NCBI GenBank assembly: GCA_022868165.1
Contig: JALHYA010000010.1
Span: forward strand, 64,375 to 103,234
Direction: 5' to 3'
Length of the DNA stretch: 38,860 nt
Origin: Patescibacteria group bacterium
GTDB lineage: Bacteria > Patescibacteriota > Microgenomatia > UBA8517
The notes under the pieces are model-generated. The model saw only the letters and a program-made list of their open reading frames with translations. It was not told the origin of the DNA and ran no database searches. The first letter of the stretch is position 1, and each line of letters starts with the position of its first letter. A program made the position numbers and the translations under genes. Positions 28,411-33,370 of the stretch are shown here, one piece after another.

Positions 28411-29649
28411 ATGCCAAAAGCAAATTTGCCAAAAGTAAGAAAGATTCTTCTCGCTGTTTTTTCGGCGGTACTTATCTTCGGCGCAGGATATTTCTTTGGG
28501 ATAAAAGGCTTTTCGGCAAACTTCAATAAATTTCCTAAAGTAACAATCAACAGGACCGTTCCGGTTAATCAGGGAAATTTGGATTTCTCGCTTTTCTGGA
28601 AAGTTTGGGATACTCTGGCGGCCAAGTATTTCGATAAAAGCAAAATCGTTCCTTCGCAGATGGTTTATGGGGCCATTAGCGGGATGGTTTCGGCTCTTGG
28701 AGACCCTTATACGGTATTTTTGCCTCCCAGTCAGAACAAGGTAGTTGAAGAAGACTTAAGCGGAAGCTTCGAAGGCGTTGGAATTCAAATAGGGTATAAA
28801 GGAAATCAACTGGCCGTTATTGCCCCTCTTCCCGGTTCCCCCGCAGAGAAAGCCGGCGTTAAAGCGGGGGATTTCATTGTCGGGATAAAGGACGAGCTGA
28901 AGAAGATTGATAGAGGAACTGTCGGCATCAGTTTACCCGATGCAGTGCAGGCGATAAGAGGTTCTGCGGGAACAAGTGTTACATTAATGCTAATCCGCGA
29001 GGGAAGCGACCAGCCGATTGTAATAGACATTGTCAGGGCAAATGTTCAAGTTCCGTCCGTGACTTTGGAATTCGTAGGGCAGAATAAAGACATCGCCCAC
29101 ATAAGGCTTATGAAATTCGGCGCGGACACGACGTCCGAGTGGGACTCTAAAATAAACGAGATATTGGCAAATAAATCGGCCAAGGCGGTAATTCTGGACC
29201 TTAGAAATAACCCGGGCGGATATCTTCAAGGAGCGGTAGATATTGCCTCCGATTTCATCAGCTCCGGTAGTGTTGCCGTAATTGAGGAGCGCTCGGATGG
29301 CTCAAAGAAAAACTACACGGCGGACAATAAGTTGGCCAGACTCGTCGATCTTCCGGTAGTTGTTTTGGTAAACGGAGGAAGCGCTTCGGCATCGGAAATT
29401 TTGGCAGGGGCTTTGCGCGACGACCGAAAAGCAAAACTTGTGGGTGAGACAACTTTTGGAAAGGGGACAATTCAGGAACCGGAGGATTTAGACGGCGGCG
29501 CCGGGCTTCATATCACAATTGCCAAATGGTTAACACCCAGCGGGTTTTGGGTGAACGAAAAAGGACTTGAACCGGACGTTAAAATTAAAAATGATACAAA
29601 TGCGGCCGTCGATGCACAGCTTGACGCCGCAATAAACTTGTTGAAGTAG
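28411..29649 (+). CDS. ctpA: S41-family C-terminal processing peptidase
   Basis: PDZ domain, LDLRNNPGGYLQGAVDIASDF, VNGGSASASEILAGAL, GETTFGKGTIQ. Confidence 0.95.
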   Translation: MPKANLPKVRKILLAVFSAVLIFGAGYFFGIKGFSANFNKFPKVTINRTVPVNQGNLDFSLFWKVWDTLAAKYFDKSKIVPSQMVYGAISGMVSALGDPYTVFLPPSQNKVVEEDLSGSFEGVGIQIGYKGNQLAVIAPLPGSPAEKAGVKAGDFIVGIKDELKKIDRGTVGISLPDAVQAIRGSAGTSVTLMLIREGSDQPIVIDIVRANVQVPSVTLEFVGQNKDIAHIRLMKFGADTTSEWDSKINEILANKSAKAVILDLRNNPGGYLQGAVDIASDFISSGSVAVIEERSDGSKKNYTADNKLARLVDLPVVVLVNGGSASASEILAGALRDDRKAKLVGETTFGKGTIQEPEDLDGGAGLHITIAKWLTPSGFWVNEKGLEPDVKIKNDTNAAVDAQLDAAINLLK

Positions 29650-29650
29650 T

Positions 29651-30790
29651 ATGGCAAGGTTTAACTTCAAAAAATCCTTACTGGTGGCCGCAATCGCGGT
29701 AGTTTTGTTTGTTGCTGTTACCGGCGGCGCCATTGCCGATAGAATTTTCGGTTTTAAGCCACTGGACCTTCTTTTTCCTAGAGGATTTAAAGTTCAACAG
29801 AAAGTTTTGACCGAGGAATCGGTTGTTATTAATGTTGTCAAAAATGTCGGTCCCTCGGTGGTGACGGTTTCGGCACAAGCACCCCAAAGGAGAGTTTTAC
29901 AACTTAATCCTTTCGGGGGATTTTCCACAAGCATCCAAGGCGGACAGCCACAGGATATAGGCAGCGGATTTATCTTGACCTCCGATGGACTTATTGCCAC
30001 CAATAAACACGTCGTTTCGGATACGACGGTTTCGTATAAAGTAGTAACTTCGGACGGAAAAACTTACGACGTAAAACAAATTAACCGTGACCCCTCCAAC
30101 GATATTGCGATGTTGAGGATTGATGCGAAGGGATTAAAACCGGTCGATTTGGGTGATTCGGATACTTTACAGGTAGGTCAATTCGTAATCGCAATAGGGA
30201 CGGCTTTGGGGCAGTTCAGAAACACCGTTACAACCGGCGTTGTTTCGGGGTTGGGCAGGGGAATACAGGCCGGTGATGAATTTCAGGGGTATGTGGAGCA
30301 GTTGGACAACGTTATTCAAACGGACGCGGCGATAAATCCGGGTAATTCCGGCGGACCGCTTCTTAACTCGGCGGGGGAGGTAATAGGAATTAATGTTGCG
30401 GTCGCCGAGTCCGCGCAAAATATCGGCTTTGCAATTCCAATCAACATTGTCAAATCCGCAATCGACCAATTTAAAACGACAGGAAAGTTTCCCTCAAAAG
30501 CCTACATTGGAGTCGAGTATCAGATGATTCCCAAACAAACGGCGCTTCTTAATAATGTTCCTCAGGGAGCATATGTTGTTAATGTTGTTGCCGGTTCTCC
30601 TGCCGAGAAAGCGGGTCTTGAGATAGGGGACATAATTTTTAAGGTCGACTCAAAAGAAATTACCCAAGATAACGGCGGATTGGCGAAAGTTATTTCAAGC
30701 AAAAAGCCCGGAGACGTTATAACTCTTGATATCAACAGAAACGGAGATAATATTAAGGCCAGCGTTACTCTTTCAGAGTTTGCGCAATAG
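29651..30790 (+). CDS. htrA: HtrA/DegP-like trypsin-like serine protease with PDZ domain
   Basis: GSGFILTSDGLIATNKHVV, NDIAMLRID, TDAAINPGNSGGPLLNSAGEVIGIN. Confidence 0.95.
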   Translation: MARFNFKKSLLVAAIAVVLFVAVTGGAIADRIFGFKPLDLLFPRGFKVQQKVLTEESVVINVVKNVGPSVVTVSAQAPQRRVLQLNPFGGFSTSIQGGQPQDIGSGFILTSDGLIATNKHVVSDTTVSYKVVTSDGKTYDVKQINRDPSNDIAMLRIDAKGLKPVDLGDSDTLQVGQFVIAIGTALGQFRNTVTTGVVSGLGRGIQAGDEFQGYVEQLDNVIQTDAAINPGNSGGPLLNSAGEVIGINVAVAESAQNIGFAIPINIVKSAIDQFKTTGKFPSKAYIGVEYQMIPKQTALLNNVPQGAYVVNVVAGSPAEKAGLEIGDIIFKVDSKEITQDNGGLAKVISSKKPGDVITLDINRNGDNIKASVTLSEFAQ

Positions 30791-30812
30791 TTGCCATTAT
30801 CCCGAATTTTCG
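30775..30812. repeat. 38-bp direct repeat copy 1 (covers htrA 3' end)
   Basis: AGAGTTTGCGCAATAGTTGCCATTATCCCGAATTTTCG, identical to 31349-31386. Confidence 0.95.
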
Positions 30813-30819
30813 CAATAAT

Positions 30820-30848
30820 TTGACTATTTAACTTCCATCCACTAGAAT
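30820..30848 (+). promoter_or_regulatory. promoter of inserted orphan gene
   Basis: TTGACT (30820-30825), 17 bp, TAGAAT (30843-30848); ATG at 30858. Confidence 0.55.
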
Positions 30849-30857
30849 TCCGATATC

Positions 30858-31349
30858 ATGAGTCCGGAAGCAAAAAGAGGTTTGGAAAGTTACCTAGAGG
30901 GCACGATGTATCTTCCCGAGTGGAGAGATGTTTTCCTTTTCGAGTTTTCTAAGATTTTGTCTCAAGCACAAATTGAGATGGGAAAGGGAGTTTATGAAGG
31001 TTTGGGAAAGCTAGGATTTAAAGTTGAAAAGGACGAGGCATCTTCTCAGCTTCTTAGAATTCTTCCCACAACAACAGATTACCCCCAACTTATCTTCAGG
31101 ATATACGAAGGCCGGGGAATAAAGTTTTTATCCGGAAATCAGAATAGGGCAGATAGGGATTGGTTAAAAGCCCTTGGGGTTGACTTGAAGGAAGCAGAAT
31201 TACGTTTGAGCTTGGGGGTAGAGCAAAATGACATGGATAGGCGAAATGCCATCAAGGTAAAAAGAGCTTATGAAATCCAGACGTTCAACGGACTATATCT
31301 CAATTTGTCATCGGGGTCGATGCTCATATTAGATGGTTCGATACGTTAA
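30858..31349 (+). CDS. hypothetical protein carried between 38-bp direct repeats
   Basis: ORF with its own promoter, no recognised motif. Confidence 0.6.
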   Translation: MSPEAKRGLESYLEGTMYLPEWRDVFLFEFSKILSQAQIEMGKGVYEGLGKLGFKVEKDEASSQLLRILPTTTDYPQLIFRIYEGRGIKFLSGNQNRADRDWLKALGVDLKEAELRLSLGVEQNDMDRRNAIKVKRAYEIQTFNGLYLNLSSGSMLILDGSIR

Positions 31350-31386
31350 GAGTTTGCGCAATAGTTGCCATTATCCCGAATTTTCG
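31349..31386. repeat. 38-bp direct repeat copy 2
   Basis: Exact copy of 30775-30812. Confidence 0.95.
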
Positions 31387-31399
31387 GAGTAGAGTTAAT

Positions 31400-32221
31400 T
31401 TATTCATCCATCCGGATGGAGAAAGAGAAATCCAGAATCTCGCCCAAAACAACGCGTTCCGCTTTAGAAAAATAACTTTCCCAGGGAGAAATTTTTACAC
31501 CCCTTATCTGCGCAATTTCCTGAAGAATACTTGTTACTGAAACCAACATCATGGGGGAAACCCTGACTGTTCTAGTGAGATTAAAAAAAGAAGGATAGAG
31601 AGTTACGTAGGGGAGTGGCGGTTTCGTTTCTGAAATAAGGAATCGGCGTTTCACCCCAACATTGGAACACAGCCTTTCCCAGCCGCCGACATCTCCCCGG
31701 TCCCGTCCGAGAATTATCGCCAAGTCAACCCCTTTCAGTCTATCCGTTTGGTACGGGTCGTTAAGTTTGCCAGGAAAATCTGCAATTGCCACTCCCGGCC
31801 GGTCCTCAAGAAAAGCTCGAATTGATTGAACAACTTCCTCTTCTGGGACCTCGTCGAAACCTCGCTTAATTCTATAACTCCAATCGATTTCTCCGGATAT
31901 AGCTTTGCCGGATTGGGTATAGAGGTCTAGATCATGATAGCTTGCCGGGATATCGTATGCTTTTAAAACTTTATAACAAGAATAAGCATAGGTGGTTTTG
32001 GATCTGTTGGGACTGCCTACTATCGCAAGGTGGAACGTATTTTCGGGTCTTGAAAGATGGTCTTGAAGCTGGGTGGCCGTGAGAGCCAATCTTCGCCCGG
32101 CAAGGTCATAAACAAGATCTCGACTTTCGAGTATTTTACGAGCTTCCTCTGCCAAGGACTGGGGATTAAAGCCAAGGACCTCTCCCATTTGTAGGGAATT
32201 GTATAAGAACCTAATTCCCAT
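31400..32221 (-). CDS. uncharacterised P-loop NTPase-like protein
   Basis: HLAIVGSPNRSKTTYAYSCYKVL (Walker A-like, final G replaced by S), VAIADFPG (Walker B/G3-like), DLAIILGRDRGD. Confidence 0.5.
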   Translation of the reverse strand: MGIRFLYNSLQMGEVLGFNPQSLAEEARKILESRDLVYDLAGRRLALTATQLQDHLSRPENTFHLAIVGSPNRSKTTYAYSCYKVLKAYDIPASYHDLDLYTQSGKAISGEIDWSYRIKRGFDEVPEEEVVQSIRAFLEDRPGVAIADFPGKLNDPYQTDRLKGVDLAIILGRDRGDVGGWERLCSNVGVKRRFLISETKPPLPYVTLYPSFFNLTRTVRVSPMMLVSVTSILQEIAQIRGVKISPWESYFSKAERVVLGEILDFSFSIRMDE

Positions 32222-32251: not shown

Positions 32252-32953
32252 CTAAGAATTCGCTTGGGTTGCGGCAACAATTTTGGAGAGTTCGCCATCA
32301 ATTATTCCCTCGAGATTTCCCCAGGATTTTCCGATTCGATGGTCCGTAACGCGGTTTTGCGGGAAGTTGTAGGTTCGAATTTTCTCGGCTCGCATGCCCC
32401 GACCAATGACAGAGCGGTAGCCGGCGACCGTTCGCATTTTTTCTTCTTCCTGTTTTTCAAAAAGTTTGGCGCGAAGGATATCCATCGCAAGCCTTCTGTT
32501 TTGTTCTTGGAAACGCTCTCTCTGTGAAGTGACAACAATCCCCGTTGGCTTATGTGTAATTCTTACCGCGGTTGATACTTTCTGAACATTCTGACCGCCC
32601 TGTGAAGAAGAATGGAAAAATTGAATGTCCAGATCGTTTGGACTTACTTGCACGTCGCTTTCTTTTATCTCGGGAAGAACAACAACCGTAGCGGTTGAGG
32701 TATGGATTCTTCCGTGTCTCTCGGTAGCCGGAATTCTCTGGACCCTATGAACTCCCGACTCGTTTTTTAGCATATCAAATACCCCAACCCCATTAATTTT
32801 AATTACATCGTCATCAATCGGAGTAACCTTCCAGCCTTTTTTGGCCGCAAAGCGCAGATACATCCGCAGTAAATCCGAAGCCCAAATTTTGGCTTCGTCG
32901 CCTCCGGTTGCACCACGAACCTCTAAATAAATTGTTTGGATGTCGGTATTCAT
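32252..32953 (-). CDS. prfA: Peptide chain release factor 1, lacking N-terminal domain 1
   Basis: EVRGATGGDEA, VHRVQRIPATERHGRIHTSTATV (PxT motif), SSSQGGQNVQKVSTAVRITHKPTG (GGQ). In-frame TAG immediately upstream. Confidence 0.85.
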   Translation of the reverse strand: MNTDIQTIYLEVRGATGGDEAKIWASDLLRMYLRFAAKKGWKVTPIDDDVIKINGVGVFDMLKNESGVHRVQRIPATERHGRIHTSTATVVVLPEIKESDVQVSPNDLDIQFFHSSSQGGQNVQKVSTAVRITHKPTGIVVTSQRERFQEQNRRLAMDILRAKLFEKQEEEKMRTVAGYRSVIGRGMRAEKIRTYNFPQNRVTDHRIGKSWGNLEGIIDGELSKIVAATQANS

Positions 32954-33055: not shown

Positions 33056-33370
33056 TTACTTCGCAGCTTTTCTAAGCTGCTCTAGAGTATCCGGCCTTTC
33101 CATCTCTTCCTGGAGTTTCTTTAAGTGCTTTAAGTGTCTCTTTTCCGTTTTTGAAACCACATTGGTGCTCGCCTTTGCCTGCTTGGCCTTAAATGCATCG
33201 ACTCGTCCGGCCGTGTCCAGATACTTCATTTGTCCGGTGTAGTAAGGGTGGCAATTGTAGCAAACTCCCACTTTCAATTCCGGCACGGTTGCGCCGACGT
33301 AAAAAACGTTGCCGCAGGCGCAAGTTACCTTCGCCTCCTGGAACCAAGTTGGATGTATGTTTGCTCGCAT
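33056..33370 (-). CDS. rpmE: 50S ribosomal protein L31, zinc type with C-terminal extension
   Basis: MRANIHPTWFQEAKVTCACGNVFYVGATVPELKVGVCYNCHPYYTGQ; about 40 extra C-terminal residues. Confidence 0.9.
   Translation of the reverse strand: MRANIHPTWFQEAKVTCACGNVFYVGATVPELKVGVCYNCHPYYTGQMKYLDTAGRVDAFKAKQAKASTNVVSKTEKRHLKHLKKLQEEMERPDTLEQLRKAAK

Follow-up and report, generated by a model that had tools for sequence, protein, structure and literature searches.

In the type VI (T6SS) arrays of Vibrio cholerae, displaced 3' ends of effector genes and arrays of orphan immunity genes have been attributed to homology-facilitated illegitimate recombination (HFIR), in which a homologous anchor on one side is combined with an illegitimate joint on the other (Kirchberger et al., PMC5361080). 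There, a new module at a conserved gene displaces the old 3' end and its module downstream, and serial events build arrays. HFIR in natural transformation has been described for Acinetobacter, S. pneumoniae, and Pseudomonas stutzeri in studies cited by the same paper (PMC5361080; see also PMC3240628). Hotspots of horizontal transfer that contain no mobile elements exchange their content through recombination at the core genes on their flanks and are over-represented in transformable bacteria (Oliveira et al. 2017, PMC5635113). Integron gene cassettes are likewise small modules that join beside an anchor and displace older ones.

Patescibacteria have tiny genomes and yet exchange genes, and the entry of new genes is mostly inferred from trees. 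Extensive gene exchange among them has been reported (PMC12455944), and ComEC-dependent natural transformation was shown experimentally in a Patescibacterium other than the one studied here (PMC10633639).

Here we describe the interval between htrA and prfA, a convergent gene pair, in a stretch of 38,860 nucleotides from a Patescibacterium (the window) and in relatives. As in the V. cholerae arrays, new modules at a conserved gene would displace the old 3' end and module downstream, and serial events would build arrays; however, the variable part of an effector is replaced there, whereas here the gene is the housekeeping protease htrA, whose 3' end is merely duplicated, and host group, cargo, and locus all differ. 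With the hotspots of Oliveira et al. the interval shares fixed core flanks and rapid cargo turnover, and it may likewise need no integrase, but those were studied within species and modeled by double homologous recombination, whereas this one is class-wide in Patescibacteria and bears the scars of one-sided joints. One homologous anchor and one illegitimate joint also characterize HFIR in the laboratory, where donor and recipient are known, whereas here HFIR is deduced from scars. Unlike integron cassettes, the modules lack an integrase at the site, an attC-like structured site, and a fixed crossover. A literature search, which is not proof of absence, found no report of an htrA-prfA hotspot; the class of mechanism is known, and the locus itself appears to be unreported.

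A fixed convergent pair with nothing inserted in almost half of the class as sampled, with mostly unrelated genes elsewhere, and with physical scars of one-sided joints provides a direct, countable record of gene gain. The locus points to transformation-type recombination over mobile elements, and the hotspot is a place to seek strain-specific genes, such as toxin-antitoxin pairs. Convergent intergenic insertion via homologous flanks has been achieved in Saccharibacteria (PMC10633639), so the mechanism is testable in a laboratory strain.

A 38-bp repeat of the htrA 3' end

The genome harboring the window (G000) is a metagenome-type draft of 821 kb in 25 contigs, 94% complete, from Patescibacteria of the Microgenomates/Woesebacteria type. 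The genes of the locus are, in order, ctp, htrA, an orphan gene preceded by its promoter and bracketed by the two copies of a repeat, a 273-aa gene, a prfA-like gene, and rpmE (Table 1). The best named match of ctp is from Candidatus Woesebacteria RBG_13_46_13 (67%). Orthologs of htrA occur in 40 of the 57 genomes of the order; the TIGR02037 score of the window's htrA falls below the curated cut-off of the family. The prfA-like protein lacks the RF1 N-terminal domain and matches NF001859/TIGR00019 only from profile position 102/110, and a second, longer release factor is encoded on contig C19. The short form of prfA is the neighbor of htrA in the family; the form in G378 (L293) has 332 aa.

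Table 1. Features of the htrA-prfA locus in the window
Feature	Position	Strand	Remarks
ctp, C-terminal processing peptidase (S41), upstream anchor	28411..29649	+	TIGR00225, E=4.8e-95; htrA neighbor in relatives
htrA, Do/DegP-type serine protease with C-terminal PDZ, left flank of hotspot	29651..30790	+	TIGR02037, E=4.3e-82
Left copy of 38-bp repeat, htrA end with stop plus 22 nt	30775..30812	+	Exact match
Orphan promoter, TTGACT-17-TAGAAT	30820..30848	+	Same hexamers and spacing in G019
Orphan gene, 163 aa, no family match	30858..31349	+	51%-identical syntenic ortholog in G019
Right copy of 38-bp repeat, vestigial htrA 3' end (scar), AGAG at joint	31349..31386	+	Exact match
Second cargo gene, 273 aa, between right repeat copy and prfA	31400..32221	-	No family match
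prfA-like short release factor 1, 233 aa, right flank of hotspot	32252..32953	-	NF001859/TIGR00019; adjoins htrA in relatives
rpmE, ribosomal protein L31, conserved neighbor past prfA	33056..33370	-	NF000612, above cut-off

A preliminary description of this DNA had reported an exact 38-bp duplication of the htrA 3' end, with the last codons and stop of htrA inside it, around a single small gene with its own promoter. Both copies are indeed exact at the positions reported, each consisting of the final htrA codons and stop (GAG TTT GCG CAA TAG) followed by 22 noncoding bases, and the ORF and its promoter are both present between them. The 273-aa gene on the far side of the right copy went unmentioned in that description. 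When one mismatch was allowed, the match grew to 41 bp, from -19 to +22 around the htrA stop, and a repeat finder extended it to 46 bp at 93%. The right copy starts on the final base of the orphan (...CGT TAA, then GAG TTT GCG CAA TAG), and the AGAG at this point is plausibly a microhomology joint. Even when 3 mismatches were tolerated, the window and the whole genome yielded no third copy, and shuffles also gave 0. In a self-comparison of the genome, the htrA repeat was among the few isolated exact direct repeats of such length, longer ones lying mostly in paralogues, tandem arrays, or contig ends. Elsewhere in the genome, a 38-bp exact intergenic repeat with internal palindromes, TGCTCAGCTCGGAGCAAGCAAAGCTTGCGGAGATCCTG, brackets a gene pair (G000:C19:176784 and 178287; L065).

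The htrA-prfA interval in relatives

Intervals were taken from relatives of other genera in the family, the order, and the class. The preliminary description had proposed comparing the region downstream of htrA, and this comparison revealed both empty sites and different cargo. Among 91 nonredundant genomes in which the two genes are linked, the gap is at most 60 bp in 39 (empty sites), 60 to 200 bp in 3, and more than 200 bp in 49, the filled intervals measuring 0.2 to 4.5 kb with cargo that mostly differs between genomes. Within the family, a gap of more than 300 bp separates htrA and prfA in 19/31 cases, ctp and htrA in 1/31, and prfA and the L31 gene in 0/39, the last junction reaching 236 bp at most (39 genomes).

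The 77 cargo ORFs of at least 90 aa have few families in common. Recognized cargo comprises HicAB toxin-antitoxin systems, NAD synthase, MurB, an MFS transporter, an Na/H exchanger, retropepsin-like proteases, and a PaaX/Cas2-like protein, and the only mobility-related protein among about 20 cargo proteins scanned was of the Y1-transposase type (one family, two genomes). With its conserved flanks and variable, unrelated content, the convergent htrA-prfA pair is best read as a hotspot of gene turnover.

Vestigial second htrA 3' ends

Six of the 49 filled intervals, including that of the window, have a second, vestigial htrA 3' end beyond the htrA-proximal cargo, with scores of 34 to 77 (the cut-off of 34 was picked after the scores were seen). 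The reversed and reverse-complement controls each yielded 0/49, and cross-genome pairs yielded 2/2064. In the five relatives, the remnants consist of htrA-type codons in frame through the stop. Read up to the stop, the remnants are EFAQ in the window, after the orphan; IKIKVWRDGEERILSATLSEFSE in G017, after a 425-aa gene; ETLQLTATLSEFSE in G018, after a 91-aa gene homologous to the 94-aa gene of G009; LQLTADLSEFPE in G009, after that 94-aa gene; VALQEFSQ in UBA10118 (L166), after a retropepsin-like gene; and the region of RVTLQQSE (23/24 bases) in G378 (L293), after a HicAB pair. At this last locus (about 477-1020), the HicAB pair occupies the htrA-prfA interval, and the 24-bp htrA 3'-end remnant comes after it as another young scar of this kind.

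A profile of the htrA C terminus independently recovered the remnants of G017 (E 8e-8) and G018 (E 9e-4), and two of the six, those of G009 and L166, are weak at the DNA level. The remnants of the sister genomes G009 and G018 probably go back to a single event; in G015, a relative of the two, the site is empty. The six scars start at different distances from the htrA stop, at about -16, -25, -40, -47, -59, and -67. Copies of the prfA 3' region were found in 3/49 intervals (controls, 0) and are strong only in G070 (L262).

A search of the window's genome for other gene-3'-end duplications, likewise proposed in the preliminary description, gave a downstream match scoring at least 34 for 21 of 699 gene ends (3%), compared with 2 in the reversed control, so echoes of 3' ends are not unique to htrA. 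Paralogues, tRNA, intergenic repeats, or a duplicated promoter account for several of the matches that we inspected. A 57-bp near-identical duplication precedes two short unrelated genes (G000:C5:28993 and 29639; L024) and carries, on the minus strand, a -35-like TTGACA and the Shine-Dalgarno-like AAGGAGGGCG; it has the appearance of a promoter/leader that was duplicated and drives different ORFs.

The orphan and the 273-aa gene

The ortholog of the orphan in G019, a genome of a related genus, also lies between htrA and prfA. Its promoter matches that of the window at 5/6 and 6/6 positions of the hexamers and at 7/17 of the spacer, and both the 17-nt spacing and the 9-nt distance between the end of the -10 box and the ATG are kept. 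Conservation of hexamers and spacing while the spacer diverged supports a real promoter and a near-leaderless start, and the orphan transcript is, judging from this layout, plausibly leaderless or nearly so, as had been proposed earlier; the arrangement is an ordinary one in this genome. Over all contigs, -10-like TANNNT motifs are enriched 6 to 11 nt before the ATG (up to 47 at distance 6 over a background of about 15, in 617 genes) and Shine-Dalgarno-like motifs occur at only about 15% of the starts, which suggests that this organism often makes leaderless transcripts.

The G019 locus contains neither the repeat nor the 273-aa gene. A tree built from ctp, prfA, and L31 places the window with G019, G029, and G013 (support, 0.997; the order inside the cluster is not settled). 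In G029 and G013 there is no htrA and no cargo at the locus, and ctp abuts prfA. The clade also displays decay of htrA, which has lost its C-terminal PDZ domain in G019 (L021:7835-8683) and is absent from G029 (L099) and G013 (L101). Most simply, this clade gained the orphan once. Since G019 holds a syntenic ortholog with the same promoter, the orphan was not freshly captured. Because the noncoding part of the 38-bp repeat is still identical, the repeat should postdate the split from G019 by a wide margin and hence did not arise when the orphan first entered the clade.

No relatives of the orphan were found in phages, plasmids, viral contigs, or genome contigs, and a two-row profile searched over 282 genomes matched only in G000 and G019. 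A weak match in G068 (31% over 72 aa in an 834-aa frame) was dropped, as the profile did not confirm it. The orphan has no match to a recombinase family or any other family in Pfam, NCBIfam, or PHROG, a PDB sequence search gave nothing useful, and its predicted structure is of low confidence (pLDDT 35). The 273-aa gene is absent from the other genomes searched. Its product has no match in Pfam, NCBIfam, or PHROG, belongs to no recombinase family, and retrieved nothing useful from the PDB by sequence; its predicted structure is also of low confidence (pLDDT 41), and a Walker-A-like GSPNRSKTT was seen by eye only. Judged by position alone, the orphan and the 273-aa protein are most likely dispensable accessory genes.

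Origin of the repeat

We propose, at a probability of roughly 0.6, that the repeat is a recombination scar in the htrA-prfA hotspot, left by HFIR. DNA of a close relative with different cargo at the locus would have entered the cell and recombined by homology within one of the flanking genes, the other side being joined illegitimately at a microhomology (AGAG). In the product, the working htrA would keep its own 3' end, and from the other htrA allele the last 16 nt and the next 22 nt would be left stranded between two cargo modules. If homology acted on the htrA side, htrA and the orphan would have arrived and displaced the recipient's old htrA 3' end and the 273-aa gene towards prfA; if it acted on the prfA side, the 273-aa module would have arrived with a piece of the donor htrA. 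Both readings give the same product, so the order of events stays a matter of inference. Parental alleles with only the orphan or only the 273-aa gene are assumed, the comparison genomes being all of other genera.

A duplicated gene end, as expected where one side was joined by homology, occurs for htrA in the window and in five other genomes and for the prfA 3' region in three, and the joints start at differing distances from the stop, with AGAG at that of the window. With a fixed attachment site, the crossover would be constant; the spread of scar starts from -16 to -67 therefore argues against such a site and for flanking-gene homology combined with an illegitimate joint. Natural transformation would be the route and HFIR the path. 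Among competence and recombination genes, DprA is encoded in the window, and the genome also encodes RecA and a ComEC domain with an adjacent ComEA-like ORF. ComEC appears as two overlapping ORFs (a channel domain of 289 aa and a metallo-beta-lactamase-like part of 289 aa; L014:2303-3990, G000:C3) located directly after the ComEA-like ORF, a form that may be either a natural split or a frameshift.

The strongest alternative, which we consider unlikely, is that AGAG slippage duplicated the 574-bp unit (htrA 3' end and orphan) in tandem and that the second orphan was then deleted, a 38-bp remnant being left. The repeat does start at the exact place of a head-to-tail junction, with AGAG at that junction, and the scar is so short that duplication and loss would leave the same sequence. 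However, nothing of a second orphan or its promoter could be detected past the right copy (alignment score, 23; controls, 23 to 24), and in the relatives the stretch from htrA to the remnant is single copy and mostly different each time, so duplication followed by loss of the cargo copy would need to recur.

An extension of the HFIR reading is that the htrA 3' end is a preferred landing zone, at which Microgenomatia would add small modules serially, the newest beside htrA, in a class-wide, integrase-free manner resembling cassette arrays. We regard this extension as doubtful; if it were true, displaced 3' ends would record the order of insertion.

Some integrating elements bring a replacement 3' end for the gene that they enter, as integrases do at tRNA genes, or in an integron-like manner. 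Small cassettes that integrated site-specifically in this way at the htrA 3' end would account for the repeated insertion directly after htrA and for the working 3' end that htrA retains, and five phage-integrase-family genes are present in the assembly. Nevertheless, the scars do not share a crossover core, their starts varying from genome to genome, copies of the prfA 3' region occur too, and 43 of the 49 occupied intervals have no htrA scar. Furthermore, no integrase was found in the window or recognized among the cargo examined, and neither cargo gene of the window belongs to a recombinase family. These findings speak against the site-specific capture considered in the preliminary description and make such integration quite improbable.

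Still less probable is that the orphan was captured as a separate mobile unit of 574 bp with the repeat at its ends. The repeat does bracket one promoter and one ORF, but the syntenic G019 ortholog has a conserved promoter and no repeat, the other members of the clade (G029 and G013) lack htrA altogether, and phages, plasmids, and viral contigs contain no relatives of the orphan. The repeat instead separates two modules, the orphan on the plus strand and the 273-aa gene on the minus strand, and does not mark the two ends of one. From the earlier proposal of a site-specific or homologous capture of a unit of about 574 bp, we thus retain a recombination that duplicated a gene 3' end and that recurs in relatives, and discard the self-contained cassette. 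A target-site duplication, already disfavored in that proposal, was rejected given the length of 38 bp, the lack of inverted ends bounding the unit, and the lack of a transposase. An integron cassette was rejected as well, with no integrase among the locus-relevant ORFs of the window and no attC-like inverted arms in the repeat scan.

Least probable of all is an assembly or strain-mixture artefact merging two alleles of the locus, for which the metagenome-type draft and the two alleles assumed by the HFIR reading itself might speak, but independent assemblies hold the same kind of remnant at the htrA-prfA locus, and 141-bp terminal overlaps on two contigs, seen in the genome self-comparison, imply a final assembly k of 141, which so far exceeds 38 bp that a k-mer misjoin is unlikely. 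The second copy, which the preliminary description had wanted checked on this point, is thus probably real.

Contigs C7 (10.3 kb; L030) and C16 (4.3 kb; L039) each have a 141-bp direct end overlap and are therefore probably circular. Both encode phage-integrase-family proteins, and they may be small plasmids, phages, or contaminants. C7 additionally carries a tandem array of 25-bp repeats.
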